From: a virus
Strand: one strand, 5' to 3'
DNA: 32,871 bases
IMG/VR virus record: IMGVR_UViG_3300042343_000477
Coordinates: 1-32,871 of that record
Shown: one piece after another, positions 9,398 to 13,977 of the stretch
Position numbering within the stretch: the first letter of the stretch is position 1
How the letters are laid out: the number at the start of each line of letters is the position of its first letter
Notes under the pieces: generated by a model
What the model was told of the DNA's origin: nothing
Database searches by the model: none
Seen by the model: only the letters and a program-made list of their open reading frames with translations
Program-made: the position numbers and the translations under genes

Positions 9398-10014
9398 TTG
9401 AATTTATTTATTATTGTTACTTCAATCGACCTTCCTAAGGCATCGGCTAAACTTTGGGCAAAAGTCTGAATGCTCTTTTCGCTCAGTGCATCGTCAATAA
9501 AATGAGTTGGCTCAATACCTTCCCTCTTTATTCCCATCCCAATAGCGTAAGCCATTTTGGTTTTTTCGTCTATTTGCTTTTTTGCCCTTGCTGATTTAGT
9601 CAAGTTGCGAGTTTGTGAATATCTGCTCTGAATCGGGATGCCTCTTTTGGTGATCCACTTGCGAAGGGATTTATTGAAAGCTGGACTAACTGATTCTTTT
9701 TTGAATGAGTAAGGCGAATTGAATTTGTTTCTGGTACCGCTTACCCCTTTGTTCAGGAAGTCTCCATAGTAGTTCATGTCAATACCCATACTAAAAGTAG
9801 TTCCGTTAGATACAATAGGCAAAGTTATTATTGATTGCACCAATTCCGAGTTAGCGTAGTAAGCATCCTTTTCAGTCAGGTTTGACTTCATCGCATCGGA
9901 CAAGCTATTGACAAACCTAATTACAGCCTCCTCAATTAACGAGTTGAACTCGGCTGGTTCTGATAAGTCAGTTCCTAAGTCGCTAAGTAAGTTAGTGTAA
10001 TCTTGTTCCTGCAT
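9394..10014 (-). CDS. Putative tail completion / neck protein
   Basis: A 206-residue protein, mixed alpha/beta and basic in the middle (a Lys/Arg-rich stretch near 130-150). The segment MNYYGDFLNKGVSG near residue 80 followed by a charged loop resembles HK97 gp10-like tail-completion proteins, but the match is weak. It overlaps the end of the frameshifted chaperone product by 23 bases and the next tail gene by ATGA. Its location between the chaperone and tail-tip genes supports a tail role. Confidence 0.45.
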   Translation of the reverse strand: MQEQDYTNLLSDLGTDLSEPAEFNSLIEEAVIRFVNSLSDAMKSNLTEKDAYYANSELVQSIITLPIVSNGTTFSMGIDMNYYGDFLNKGVSGTRNKFNSPYSFKKESVSPAFNKSLRKWITKRGIPIQSRYSQTRNLTKSARAKKQIDEKTKMAYAIGMGIKREGIEPTHFIDDALSEKSIQTFAQSLADALGRSIEVTIINKFK

Positions 10015-10249
10015 TCTGTCGCTTAATCTCTTCGGTGTGGTCTATGTGATAGCTTACTATATTCAAAAATTCTTTTAGCCCTAAATTAAAAAAGTAATCC
10101 CATTTGGTCTTGTCATGTCCTGCAAGGTTATCTATTGTCGCAACCCATCCCCATTTTGTGTTAAAGTTCTGAGCTGGTTCTCCATCGTTTCCGCTTGACT
10201 CAGGAAATAGTTTAGGATATTGTCCGATAATTTGGCGGATAGAGTGCAA
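9992..10249 (-). CDS. Second-frame part of tail assembly chaperone, reached by -1 frameshift
   Basis: An 84-85-residue reading frame in -1 relative to the upstream chaperone. It has no good start of its own (the first codon is TTG) but opens exactly at the T9 run at 10248-10256. Slippage there would give one 243-residue protein: 158 residues from the upstream frame plus these. The segment KWGWVATIDNLAGHDKTKW resembles the C-terminal part of siphophage assembly chaperones. Programmed -1 frameshifting in the G/GT chaperone genes is well established in siphophages. A homopolymer length error would look the same. Confidence 0.65.
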   Translation of the reverse strand: MHSIRQIIGQYPKLFPESSGNDGEPAQNFNTKWGWVATIDNLAGHDKTKWDYFFNLGLKEFLNIVSYHIDHTEEIKRQNAGTRLH

Positions 10250-10722
10250 AAAAAAAGCATGATTGGGTAAGCATCTTTGATTTTCATCTTGTTAAGTAGT
10301 AGTTCGCTTATTTCGTCGTGTTCGTCCCCGTTGTACTTTCCTGCCTTTCCAAATCTCCAGCTAATAGGTCTAATGCAACTTGCCACAATTCGGTGTATAT
10401 TGTCCAATGGATTAGACTTTGCAAAGTGGGTAATGTCAATAAACTGGGCTGAGCTTATTTGGCTTAATCTGTAATCAATAAAAAACCATTTACCCCCTAC
10501 CTTTACTTTACTTTTGTAAACTGCCTTAATCGGTTGGGCTTCTAATTTCTCAAAGTCTGAGTATAGCTCAATCACTTGGGCTGAGGTCATGCCATCAAAG
10601 AACTCCTTTTCCACCTTAAACAAGATTGAAAGCTTTTGTCTTTTCGCTTCCAAGTCGTTACCCTTCACCGAGTTTAGCTCTATGAAGTCCTTTAAGGTTA
10701 AATTGTAGTAAATGCTTTTCAT
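10132..10722 (-). CDS. Tail assembly chaperone, short (zero-frame) product
   Basis: A 196-residue, mostly helical, charged protein that probably coats the tape measure during tail assembly. It has no membrane segment or known catalytic motif. Residue 156 begins the CTT TTT TTT run, from which a -1 shift leads into the frame ending at 9992. Without a shift, translation ends after 38 more residues at 10132. The short and long products would correspond to gpG and gpGT of lambda. The ATG at 10722 follows an AAATATATA leader just after the large terminase stop. The gene lies four genes before the tape measure. Confidence 0.6.
   Translation of the reverse strand: MKSIYYNLTLKDFIELNSVKGNDLEAKRQKLSILFKVEKEFFDGMTSAQVIELYSDFEKLEAQPIKAVYKSKVKVGGKWFFIDYRLSQISSAQFIDITHFAKSNPLDNIHRIVASCIRPISWRFGKAGKYNGDEHDEISELLLNKMKIKDAYPIMLFFCTLSAKLSDNILNYFLSQAETMENQLRTLTQNGDGLRQ
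10248..10256 (-). promoter_or_regulatory. T9 slippery sequence for -1 ribosomal frameshifting
   Basis: On the minus strand the codons read ATG CTT TTT TTT TGC, so a T TTT TTT heptamer in the correct phase is present. The -1 frame is open from this point to 9992 and the zero frame to 10132. It is probably a programmed site in the tail chaperone gene; an assembly error in the nine-T run is the alternative. Confidence 0.6.
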
Positions 10723-10740
10723 TCTATTCTATATATTTTT

Positions 10741-11817
10741 TTAAGCCCTAATTGTAACATATTGACCCCGTCTGTGTTCTTGCAACTTCATTAAAGCCAA
10801 ATAGCGTGTAGCATCAATTAAGTGGTTATTAAAGTCCACAGGTTCGTTTACTATCTTGCCAGCCTTATCCGTTTTCCATTTGTAGGTGCGGAACTCCTTT
10901 TGAAGGTTGTTGCCTATCAAGTTAAGTCGGTACCGTCTAAGAATGTCAATAGAGTTTATAATTGAGTCTTTACCCTTCTGAGTAGGTTTGATATTAAAGC
11001 CTAACCTATAAACCTCCTCGATACTTTTTGGTTCAGCACTATCAGCGTAAATCTCCTTCCGAGCAATGCCCATATCCTTTAACCTTTCGGCTATGTCCTG
11101 ATTTGTCAGCCCTCTTTCGTAAAGCTCCTCCCTTACATACAGTTCCTGCTCATACTTCCAAACTGAAACTAATGCAGTAGGGTCGGCACTAAAACCCCAG
11201 TCTAACCCGTAACCTACAAAATTGGCGTTATCTGGTACCGCTAATTGATTCGTCCAGTTGTTAAAGACTAAGCCCATCAGTTGACCTCTTTCCCCTAAAC
11301 CAAATATTTTCCAATACTCTGGGTCTGCTTGTTCTAAACTTTCAATCTCCTTTTTAAGTGCATCGGGAAGGTGGGGATTGTCCTTATAGGTTGTAATGAT
11401 TAGACCGCAATCTTCTCGGGTTAATACCTGATCATAAATCCAATGTTCAAAGTCTGAAGGGTTGTAGTCAATAATGACCTTGCCAGTCGTCCTTAAAAGT
11501 AACTGCCTCCAGTCTTCCAAGTCAATCTCATTTGCTTCATTAACAAATAGGATATCACGCTTTCTACCTCTTATCTTTTGGGCATCGTCCACGCTAAAGA
11601 ATTCAATTAGATTCTTATTTAGCAGGTAGGTGTTTTCTGACTTGTTATGGTCTGCCTCGTTATAGTACCCTATTGAGTTTAGAATCTCTATAAAGTCCCT
11701 CATTGATGACGACTTCAAAGCAGGAAGGGTTTTCCTTACTATTGAGATGGTCATACCCTGATGCTTTAGACATAATCGGATAAGCCATTGTAAGGCTGAG
11801 TAGGTTTTTCCCGTCAT
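10741..11817 (-). CDS. terL: Large terminase subunit (main part, broken inside Walker A)
   Basis: The packaging motor ATPase and nuclease. From the ATG at 11817 it reads MTGKTYSALQWL, so it starts within the P-loop. Walker B with the catalytic Glu is RDILFVNEAN (about 87-96). The RNase-H-like nuclease has acidic residues in YGLDWGF (D206), YADSAEP (D259) and HLIDATRYL (D335). The missing N-terminus lies just upstream in another frame (11903-11814), ending in QGGTRS. Joining the two with a two-base skip restores GGTRSTGKT, a perfect Walker A. The two pieces overlap as ATGA. The break may be an assembly error, a real mutation or an unusual split gene. Confidence 0.88.
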   Translation of the reverse strand: MTGKTYSALQWLIRLCLKHQGMTISIVRKTLPALKSSSMRDFIEILNSIGYYNEADHNKSENTYLLNKNLIEFFSVDDAQKIRGRKRDILFVNEANEIDLEDWRQLLLRTTGKVIIDYNPSDFEHWIYDQVLTREDCGLIITTYKDNPHLPDALKKEIESLEQADPEYWKIFGLGERGQLMGLVFNNWTNQLAVPDNANFVGYGLDWGFSADPTALVSVWKYEQELYVREELYERGLTNQDIAERLKDMGIARKEIYADSAEPKSIEEVYRLGFNIKPTQKGKDSIINSIDILRRYRLNLIGNNLQKEFRTYKWKTDKAGKIVNEPVDFNNHLIDATRYLALMKLQEHRRGQYVTIRA

Positions 11818-11903
11818 GAACGCGTGCCACCTTGTAAGGCAAGCACGCGCTTTGTATTTATATTTTTTTCTAAAAAAACGAAGTTAGGGTTAAATATTTG
11901 CAT
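11814..11903 (-). CDS. terL: N-terminal fragment of large terminase
   Basis: A 29-residue frame from the ATG at 11903 to TGA at 11814-11816: MQIFNPNFVFLEKN, then NTKRVLALQGGTRS. It is exactly what precedes the P-loop in phage large terminases. Its start overlaps the end of the HNH gene by 14 bases, and its stop overlaps the ATG of the main terminase frame (ATGA). The intact protein would be about 387 residues. Confidence 0.75.
   Translation of the reverse strand: MQIFNPNFVFLEKNINTKRVLALQGGTRS
11821..11849. repeat. GC-rich inverted repeat at the terminase break
   Basis: CGCGTGC (11821-11827) and GCACGCG (11843-11849) are perfect 7-base inverted repeats around a 15-base loop that can form a further short stem. 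It is strikingly GC-rich for this genome. It overlaps the codons for RVLALQGGTR of the P-loop region and ends 4-7 bases before the ATGA where the frame breaks. Confidence 0.75.
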
Positions 11904-12441
11904 TAATCCAAAGTTGTTTATTATTCACTATATCTTGTATATGTTTTTCTGAAACTCCAAATTTTTTTGAAAGTTCTTTCCTTCCATAATGTTTTTTTTC
12001 TGAAGCTATTTTTCTTATTTCAATAACATCTTGTTCTAATAGTTTAGAGTTTGGATTTTTACTTCCTTGCTTTGGTTTTGACAATCCTATATTAAAAGAA
12101 TGTTTTATATTTTTAGAATGACTTATCCATTCAAGATTTAAATAATTATTATTTTGTCTATTACCATCAATATGATTAACCTCTAAAGATGATGAATAGT
12201 TATTGCAAAAATGCAATGCTACTAATCTATGAACTTTAAATGTTTGTAATTTTTTATTTTTAGATAGTGCAACTCTAAAATACCCATCTTCATCTTTTGC
12301 AGGTTTTAAAGTTTTACCTTTCAATTTTAAAATTCTTTTGCCTTCATGAGCATAAACATTTCTGTCAATTGACCTTACATTGCCATGAGTTGAAACCTGA
12401 TAATAGCCCTCAAACCCATTTATATCTTTCCATTTTTCCAT
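11890..12441 (-). CDS. HNH homing endonuclease with NUMOD4 domain
   Basis: A 183-residue protein. The N-terminal NUMOD4-like region is EKWKDINGFEGYYQVSTHGN. The HNH core (about 75-110) has LVALHFCNN, LEVNHIDGNRQNNNYLNLEW and SHSKNIKHSF. A C-terminal helix-turn-helix (about 150-175, GRKELSKKFGVSEKHIQDI) would read the target site. The ATG at 12441 is preferred to the TTG at 12447. The gene is more AT-rich than its neighbours, as expected of a recent mobile insertion. It lies between the terminase subunits, overlapping the large terminase start, and would be a free-standing homing gene; no intron structure was identified. Confidence 0.9.
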   Translation of the reverse strand: MEKWKDINGFEGYYQVSTHGNVRSIDRNVYAHEGKRILKLKGKTLKPAKDEDGYFRVALSKNKKLQTFKVHRLVALHFCNNYSSSLEVNHIDGNRQNNNYLNLEWISHSKNIKHSFNIGLSKPKQGSKNPNSKLLEQDVIEIRKIASEKKHYGRKELSKKFGVSEKHIQDIVNNKQLWINANI

Positions 12442-12500
12442 ATACAAATATAAACAATGTTTTTACTTTAATGCTATTTTGTTCCACCTTTTTATTAACA

Positions 12501-12935
12501 TTACTCAATCGGTTTAGTCAACCACTCAGGCAATTTATTGACGTTTATGTTTTGCTCAGTTTGAACCTTCTCAGTTAAGCCGTTTAGTCTTTGAGTTATA
12601 CTCGGATTGTACACCCCAGCAAGGCCACCTTGTATCTGGTCTTCTCTGACCTCTTTGCGTATATGTGTACAGACAGCGACATAGTCAGTGTATCTTTCAT
12701 CCTTATTTGAAAAATAGTGGCTTAAATCGCTTATAATGCCCTTTTTAAATAAATACAATTCAAACCCCTCAAGTGTCAAAGCCCTTTCCCTCTTTTCATA
12801 AACTGACTTTCCGTCTTTCCCAACAAATGTGTGTTTTAGTATTGGGTTGGCTTTTGCCTCCTCTCTGTACTTTTCAAAAAGCTCATACATTATTTCTGGG
12901 CTTTCTATTGCTTTTGGTTTACCTATTTTTGACAT
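12501..12935 (-). CDS. terS: Small terminase subunit
   Basis: A 144-residue protein that recognises phage DNA at the start of packaging. It begins with a helix resembling DNA-packaging gp3-like proteins (SPEIMYELFEKYREEAKANP), then has TLEGFELYLFKKGI and an HTH-like segment with ISDLSHYFSNKDERYTDY. The end (LPEWLTKP) is typical of small terminases. It directly precedes the large subunit apart from the inserted HNH gene, and it overlaps the upstream glycosyltransferase by 17 bases. Confidence 0.8.
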   Translation of the reverse strand: MSKIGKPKAIESPEIMYELFEKYREEAKANPILKHTFVGKDGKSVYEKRERALTLEGFELYLFKKGIISDLSHYFSNKDERYTDYVAVCTHIRKEVREDQIQGGLAGVYNPSITQRLNGLTEKVQTEQNINVNKLPEWLTKPIE

Positions 12936-13977
12936 TTTTAAATAACTCCTTTCTTAATTCGTTTATTCTTAATATATTAAAATTGGTGTAAATTTCCTGA
13001 TATAAGGCTTCGCCTAAGTCTTCTCTAAGGTCTTTGCTGTCTATTAACCTCTTTATGTTTTTAAACCAAGTATTCTTTTTAGCTGTTAGGCAGTTTATTC
13101 CATGTTTAGCTATATTGGTGTATGGGTACTGGTCTGAAACTACAACTGGAAGTCTTTTAGCTCCCATCTCCATCATTTTTAATTCTGACTTACAGCGGTT
13201 AAACTCGGTATCTTTTAAAGGAATTAAACCAACATCCATTAAATCGTAAGCACTTGCGTAAGTAAAGACATCCATTCCGTTTATTCTGCAGTACTGGTCT
13301 TCTGCTATTTTGTAACCTGAAGTAAAGATTTTTTGATATTCGCTCCATACTGAATCCCCCTCTACAAAACCGCTCAAAACTACCCTATATTTTTTGCTCG
13401 TGTCAGGATTAGAGTTTAACTGCATAAAAGTATCAGTCAGCATCATTACGTCATGAAAGTGTGTTACGCTTCCGCTCCATCCAATGTGAACTTTATCGGT
13501 TTTTAGGTCTTTTACTTTTTGATCAGGCTTAAATTGAGCTTGGTTAAAATCAATAGCGTTCGGGATTACAAACACGTTTTTGTTATATTGTCTAACTTTT
13601 TGAGCTAAGTACTCAGTTGGTACAGTTACAGCATCAGCCATCTTTAGATTATAGACTATTTGTTCAGCTGTCTTATTGGCTACCCAGTCCCTTTTCATTA
13701 AGTGGTCGTGTGGTAACTGCCAGTCGTCATCTCGGTCAACAATTACGGGAATGCCTAAGCGTTTAAGCTGCGCCCAGAGTACTTCTTGAAATCCTTGTTT
13801 ACTTACTACTGAACTTGTATAGATTAAATCAAACTGTTCAAAGAATGAATCCTGTTGCTGGTCTATTATCTCAACTGAGGTTACTTCGTATCCTTCCCCC
13901 ATATTCTCAAAGGGCATTAATAAGCGGTGGTATTCAACTCCCGTTATTGGCTTTGGTATAATTACAAGTATTTTCAT
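12919..13977 (-). CDS. Glycosyltransferase, GT-B fold (GT4-like)
   Basis: A 352-residue protein. The N-terminal Rossmann half contains YHRLLMPFENM and VIVDRDDDWQLP. The C-terminal half has HIGWSGSVTHFHD and the nucleotide-sugar site region GLIPLKDTEFNRCKSELKMM, with the Glu of the EX7E-like motif. It would transfer a sugar from an activated donor; the acceptor is unknown. It overlaps the upstream methyltransferase by ATGA. Its location in a three-gene sugar/methyl cassette just before the terminase suggests modification of virion protein or of DNA. Confidence 0.8.
   Translation of the reverse strand: MKILVIIPKPITGVEYHRLLMPFENMGEGYEVTSVEIIDQQQDSFFEQFDLIYTSSVVSKQGFQEVLWAQLKRLGIPVIVDRDDDWQLPHDHLMKRDWVANKTAEQIVYNLKMADAVTVPTEYLAQKVRQYNKNVFVIPNAIDFNQAQFKPDQKVKDLKTDKVHIGWSGSVTHFHDVMMLTDTFMQLNSNPDTSKKYRVVLSGFVEGDSVWSEYQKIFTSGYKIAEDQYCRINGMDVFTYASAYDLMDVGLIPLKDTEFNRCKSELKMMEMGAKRLPVVVSDQYPYTNIAKHGINCLTAKKNTWFKNIKRLIDSKDLREDLGEALYQEIYTNFNILRINELRKELFKNVKNR

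Follow-up and report, generated by a model that had tools for sequence, protein, structure and literature searches.

A proposed translational bypass element in the Walker A motif of phage large terminases and its association with homing endonuclease genes

Results

Organization of the terminase locus

The window, which is the whole stretch of DNA analyzed here, corresponds to the IMG/VR record IMGVR_UViG_3300042343_000477 and comprises 32,871 bases. Its terminase locus consists of the small subunit gene terS, a NUMOD4/HNH_3 homing endonuclease gene and the large subunit gene terL, the latter distributed over two open reading frames (Table 1). Both domains of the endonuclease score above the curated Pfam cut-offs, and the 3' end of its gene overlaps the start of terL. 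The first terL frame (ORF1) terminates as QGGTRS followed directly by TGA, and the open frame with GKT and the remainder of terL (10741–11817, minus strand) is shifted in phase with respect to it. The product of this second frame (ORF2) matches the Pfam families Terminase_3 and Terminase_3C as well as PHROG terminase models, the Terminase_3 match entering at model position 13. Comparison with intact relatives, which read ...CGT TCA GGT AAG..., reveals five extra nucleotides, TGACG, in the window. The initial annotation had placed a break of the large terminase inside its Walker A motif, and both the frames and the relatives, intact or interrupted at this same motif, confirm it; the surplus amounts to five bases and not to the two originally proposed.

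Table 1. Features of the terminase locus in the window
Feature	Coordinates	Strand	Remarks
terS, terminase small subunit (GP3_package / PHROG 606)	12501..12935	-	profile matches
Left edge of the cassette, AAAGGTGGAACAAAATAGCA, directly after terS	12472..12491	-	common to L021, L052 and L064 (1–2 differences)
NUMOD4 + HNH_3 homing endonuclease gene	11890..12447	-	start ATG 12441 or TTG 12447
terL ORF1, 29 codons, MQIFNPNFVFLEKNINTKRVLALQGGTRS then TGA	11814..11903	-	first half of Walker A
Hairpin in ORF1 mRNA, 14 pairs, about -19.7 kcal/mol	11819..11851	-	3' foot reaches the take-off codon
Proposed take-off codon UCA (Ser)	11817..11819	-	suggested by the model
5-nt insert TGACG, missing from intact relatives, opening with an in-phase stop	11812..11816	-	from alignment
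Proposed landing triplet ACG	11814-11812	-	suggested by the model
terL ORF2, restarting at GGA AAA ACC (GKT)	10741..11811	-	remaining ATPase and nuclease domain

Two further observations concern the surroundings of the locus. Directly upstream of terS lies a glycosyltransferase-like gene (PHROG 7162, 12919–13977), similar genes being present in several relatives. Downstream of terL, on the minus strand, the region 9992–10722 holds two ORFs that overlap in different phases, together with nine consecutive T at approximately 10258–10250, an arrangement that resembles a frameshift or slippage site of the tail-chaperone type.

Recurrence of the interruption among close relatives

A search of IMG/VR yielded 80 relatives, and the Walker A motif is readable in 77 of them. 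The motif is interrupted at the same place in 36 and intact in 41 of these contigs, which are metagenomic, several of them short, and among which near-identical ones are not independent. Alignment with related terminases, which the initial annotation had advised, recovers the same break, although not uniformly. Intact relatives read QGGTRSGKT or a close variant. The insert measures 5 nt in 31 of the interrupted copies and 6 nt in the other five, and in all 36 its first three bases form a stop codon in the phase of the upstream frame. Following the Ser codon, the inserts TGACG, TGACT, TGAGCA, TAAGCA and TGATTA are observed, and an insert TGAGT occupies a second position, between QGG and TRS. 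The sequence ATGA in the window, earlier taken for a stop–start coupling, turns out to be incidental: it results from the Ser codon TCA preceding TGA, the Ser codons TCC and TCT yield CTGA and TTGA, respectively, and some relatives have an in-frame TGA or TAA with no start codon before GKT. In the relative L038, TAA replaces the TGA of the window, and this copy, which carries a 6-nt insert, nests on the tree among those with 5-nt inserts. The coexistence of both insert lengths and the nested position of L038 indicate that no single fixed frameshift fits the data. Moreover, the occurrence of the break in 36 contigs from other metagenomes means that it is due neither to chance nor to faulty assembly; the break in the terL of the window is real.

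Selection on both halves of the interrupted gene

Analysis of substitution rates in two groups of broken lineages gave dN/dS values of 0.026 and 0.076 for ORF2; in the 25 codons of ORF1 that precede the insert, the values are about 0 and 0.08. Both halves of terL are under purifying selection. No second terL was found in the window record, nor any other Terminase_3C gene in 11 records with a broken terL, including contigs of 33.4 and 31.5 kb. The ORF1 segment aligns with the solved chain of the gene 2 terminase at KGGRGSGKS, and by homology it is thus not dispensable. No tRNA gene, and hence none able to suppress the stop, was found in the window. A changed genetic code is not plausible either, since TGA ends several ordinary genes of the window and L038 uses TAA at the same place.

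An upstream hairpin specific to interrupted copies

In all interrupted copies of the window's terL family a strong hairpin forms, its 3' foot reaching the last sense codon; the intact copies have none. Folding was compared with that of 500 synonymous recodings of the same 18 codons; the resulting z-scores range from -3.6 to -5.3 in every interrupted type and lie above -1.8 in every intact one. Among 13 distinct sequences, 95.6% of the hairpin cells are paired, compared with 24–57% in slid controls. Compensatory changes occur at two of the pairs, a covariation that is modest, many cells being inherited together.

Endonuclease linkage and the replaced tract

A NUMOD4/HNH_3 gene between terS and terL is present in the window and in the relatives L021, L052, L064 and L065, all of them interrupted. 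The same break with an HNH gene at this place does exist elsewhere, as the initial annotation had envisaged, and its emphasis on the neighboring endonuclease was justified, this gene being found in the window's terL family only beside broken copies: in 4 of the 36 interrupted relatives and in none of the 41 intact ones, in addition to the window (one-sided Fisher p 0.04). Most interrupted copies in the family are without an HNH gene beside terL, and none was detected elsewhere in those whole records that miss it there, which is a weak negative. In the interrupted L094, a different ORF, HNH-like by eye and with no Pfam match, takes the place of the endonuclease. Two distant lineages share a small ORF that replaces the HNH gene upstream of interrupted terL (L001, 2500–2735; L077, 2560–2900). 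The pattern ACNCGTTCNTRANNNGGNAARAC was rejected as a search key; it also matched unrelated sequences (L116–L124).

The extent of the exchanged DNA becomes obvious when L064 is compared with its intact sister L068. Per 60-base block, terS is 93–100% identical between the two. Beyond its end they differ completely, across the endonuclease and the 5' part of terL, and they agree again once GKT is reached, so that the replaced tract extends from the endonuclease up to the break. Among the broken copies of the window's clade, identity amounts to 97.9% in ORF1 and to 83.5% in ORF2; against intact copies it drops to 67.6% in ORF1, whereas in ORF2 it stays at about 83%. In the ORF2 tree, broken and intact copies are intermingled, with 11 changes of state, at least 7 of which are forced by supported branches. 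Taken together, the replaced tract, the contrast between the ORF1 and ORF2 identities and the mixing on the tree show that the insert moves as a unit with the 5' part of terL, and in the sister phages also with the endonuclease. Homing should leave this pattern if its conversion tract stops at Walker A, a reading that the sequence comparisons support well.

Linkage is looser in other families. Five intact loci of a second terL family have an HNH gene within 1.5 kb, and in L127 (1777–3518) and L128 (1297–3038) a member of the same HNH family is located just upstream of an in-frame terL with the motif QGGSRSSKT. The association with HNH genes, which concerns few loci (p 0.04 in the window's family and 0.11 in the second), is supported mainly by the replaced tract.

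Longer gaps in a second terminase family

Through relatives of the HNH protein, further terL families with a break at this motif were identified. In the second family 104 of 106 loci are intact, and gaps of 36–47 nt at the Walker A motif were identified in a total of 24 contigs (L181, L183, L195, L203, L240, L298, L359 and 17 more from a DNA pattern search). Most of these gaps comprise a Ser codon TCC as putative take-off site, an immediate TAA, a hairpin and a Ser codon TCA or TCG as putative landing site, followed by the rest of the motif; the remaining take-off/landing pairs are TCG/TCA, GGT/GGC, GCT/GCT and GCC/GCA. Synonymous take-off and landing codons are thus found in this family and also in L194, from a further family, with five surplus nucleotides, CGG as take-off and CGT as landing codon. 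In L195, L203 and L183 the stop is situated one or more codons beyond the take-off codon. The gap hairpin of the main subgroup has 100% of its cells paired, with three pairs changed on both sides. Among the pattern-found contigs of the second family with upstream sequence in reach, a NUMOD4/HNH gene lies directly upstream of terL in L356, L358, L365, L366, L372, L373 and L376; in L183, L194, L195 and L203 both NUMOD4 and HNH_3 score above the curated cut-offs.

In the region 1–1100 of L359, a stranded terL 5' end (QGGTS followed by a stop) runs into the beginning of a gap. It is followed by an endonuclease-like ORF that has no Pfam match and by a second terL 5' end with a gap of 47 nt. This arrangement likely records that the site was invaded a second time. 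Finally, apparent inteins with HNH domains occupy the same Walker A position, in frame (...VHN/SGKT), in L134 (near 1013), L142 (near 1524) and L166 (near 3639).

Discussion

We hold it to be likely, with good confidence, that terL of the window contains a short programmed bypass element which has spread as a homing-endonuclease cassette, in analogy to mobA and gene 60 of phage T4. In the proposed mechanism, a ribosome translating ORF1 would reach UCA with UGA in the A site, upon which the peptidyl-tRNA-Ser would let go; the mRNA would slide by 5 nt, or by 6 in some relatives, and once the tRNA had re-paired with the triplet before GGN, translation would resume at GGA-AAA-ACC to produce an intact Walker A motif, QGGTRSGKT. 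Refolding of the upstream hairpin while the mRNA exits the ribosome may pull the mRNA forward, a role that was proposed for the 5' stem-loop of T4 (PMC5009743, PMC11194080) and that suits the position of the hairpin; this pulling model is tentative because the 3' arm of the hairpin should still be inside the ribosome when UCA is in the P site. At the DNA level, the NUMOD4/HNH nuclease would cut uninterrupted terL near Walker A, and repair would copy the endonuclease together with the insert and the part of terL, its 5' end, that bears the hairpin. The new copy would then be shielded from the nuclease by the insert, and bypassing would keep terL alive.

Several properties of the locus recall bypassing of the T4 gene 60 type, namely two out-of-phase frames of one conserved protein separated by a non-coding gap, a stop beside the presumed take-off site and an mRNA stem-loop, located upstream in the window's family and within the gap in the second family. 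ORF1 is conserved in sequence, but as this conservation also serves the protein it provides no separate mark of a stimulatory nascent peptide. In the 5–6 nt class, the take-off and landing triplets are compatible at positions 2 and 3 only, wobble allowed (UCA with ACG, ACU, GCA or UUA; UCU with ACG or GCA; GGY with AGU), a pairing judged by hand in which position 2 of UUA involves a G-U pair. A single rule, leaving the last sense codon and landing before the resume codon, restores the wild-type residues in all types. No event other than bypassing of the entire insert regenerates exactly the wild-type residues in every insert type.

Recoding, one of the options considered in the initial annotation, is strongly favored by these data, its type being better described as short bypassing than as slippage. 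A -1 frameshift before UGA in the 5-nt class, combined with stop readthrough in the 6-nt class, would indeed join the frames for every insert, both frames being in phase around the stop in the 6-nt copies, at the price of two extra P-loop residues. We regard this combination as unlikely: it requires two different events for interchangeable inserts behind the same hairpin, in its products (QGGTRS-x-T-GKT and QGGLSTRSGKT) the glycine spacing GxxxxGKT, which every intact relative preserves, is lost, and it leaves unexplained the gaps of the second family with their stops and out-of-frame hairpins. A conserved slippery site is missing as well; the heptamer GGGAAAA at 11812 lies 3' of the stop, in the wrong phase for slippage, and is not conserved, which agrees with the earlier remark that no standard slippery heptamer is visible. 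Termination–reinitiation, in which NTGA would couple a 29-residue peptide to a second chain beginning with (f)M-T-G-K-T, the two pieces then assembling, can draw on the NTGA created by all 5-nt inserts (with ATG, CTG or TTG) and on the fact that a protein split by a homing endonuclease can still function (PMC2988022). In relatives with 6-nt inserts and in the examined copies of the second family, no start codon lies between GK and the last stop before it, which is the case for 10 of the 14 listed broken loci (L038, L052, L058, L094, L183, L194, L195, L203, L240 and L298), so that reinitiation fails as a general account, and the ORF1 hairpin of the window sits where the ribosome-binding site of ORF2 would be. 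The split protein proposed as another option is on these grounds quite improbable.

Removal of the insert at the RNA level, as a very small spliced or edited segment, would suit the usual position of introns and inteins, that is a precise insert in a conserved motif beside a homing endonuclease, the more so as inteins occupy this motif in three of the loci described above. We nevertheless judge it highly improbable, given that 5–6 nt is far below the size of any known intron and that searches against Rfam returned no intron match, either in the window (E up to 1) or in L064, L203, L240 and L359 (gathering thresholds). The same result speaks against a group I or group II intron at the insert of the window, no catalytic intron RNA being recognized, and an intein was dismissed as the insert consists of 5 nt with a stop instead of an in-frame insertion with splicing motifs. 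As for an assembly error, the remaining option of the initial annotation, or a decayed and non-functional terL, nothing but the broken frame itself argues for it; the 36 contigs from other assemblies, the very low dN/dS on both sides and the conserved hairpin reduce its probability to a practically negligible level.

Compared with known systems, the proposed bypass element is closest to T4 gene 60, where a 50-nt insert is bypassed in a gene split by a homing endonuclease and was suggested to protect against the nuclease (PMC5009743), and where the neighboring mobA and a motor model for the 5' stem-loop have been described (PMC5009743, PMC3014915, PMC11194080). Common to both are a stop after take-off, a non-coding insert at a fixed site, stem-loops including a 5' one, an HNH neighbor and a proposed protective role of the insert. 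The gaps of the second family (36–47 nt, synonymous take-off and landing codons, hairpin within the gap) resemble it most. On the other hand, the element described here resides in the Walker A motif of terL, in phages that are presumably from Bacteroidota hosts; in the window its gap is only 5 nt long, its hairpin lies upstream instead of inside, and landing involves partial pairing (GGA/GGA in T4). It is also widespread and moves between lineages, whereas the T4 element was described as unique to T4 among its relatives (PMC5009743, PMC3014915, PMC11194080). A candidate bypass in a terminase gene is mentioned for the Streptomyces phage Hau3 (PMC5009743, its ref. 161); according to that description, with which the likeness is drawn at the level of text and not of sequence, it is linked to a UUA codon and suggested to be regulatory, with no homing endonuclease or Walker A insert described there. 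In the tape-measure gene of mycobacteriophage Corndog, thus in another gene, an HNH insertion lies upstream and bypassing is one of two suggestions (PMC4351075). Many short inserts are bypassed in essential genes of Magnusiomyces mitochondria (PMC5009743), a mitochondrial process apparently independent of mRNA context, whereas in the window's family each insert comes with a hairpin. The inteins in the Walker A motif of terL share motif and HNH endonuclease with the bypass element and differ by protein splicing of a large in-frame insert.

The host phylum is probably Bacteroidota, judging from the best cultured relatives, which include Parabacteroides and Flavobacterium phages at 38%, and from the second family, whose genome matches are mostly Bacteroidota. 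Prevotella loescheii is likewise a member of this phylum. A 29-nt hop has been reported for this species (PMC5009743). A first scan of bacterial genome contigs revealed no prophages of the window's terL family. Among the cultured phages checked (FpV9, elemoA and phi19:3) none was found to carry the element: terL of Flavobacterium phage FpV9 is annotated as one frame, and the HNH relatives in elemoA and phi19:3 are not beside terL.

We thus consider it fairly probable that phages, themselves probably of Bacteroidota, harbor, in the Walker A motif of their terminase, a large and diverse class of translational bypass elements borne by homing endonucleases, among them minimal ones of 5–6 nt driven by an upstream hairpin and with two-base landing pairing. 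Neither a description of such terL elements nor this latter architecture was encountered in the literature searched, from which subscription papers were mostly absent, and novelty is accordingly provisional. Few natural cases of bypassing are known, and counterparts acting over shorter distances have long been expected (PMC5009743); the elements described here would probably form the first large natural family of such ribosome skips in phages. Translational bypassing has until now been represented by a handful of natural examples, foremost among them T4 gene 60. If the proposal is true, dozens of natural variants at a single motif, with inserts of 5, 6 and 36–47 nt, hairpins upstream or in the gap and landing codons matched or mismatched, would allow the rules that govern ribosome sliding to be tested comparatively. 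In practice, pipelines that rely on terL as a marker probably annotate such genes as broken or truncated. The variants would also show that a selfish endonuclease can exploit the ribosome so that its target site is tolerated even within an essential catalytic motif.
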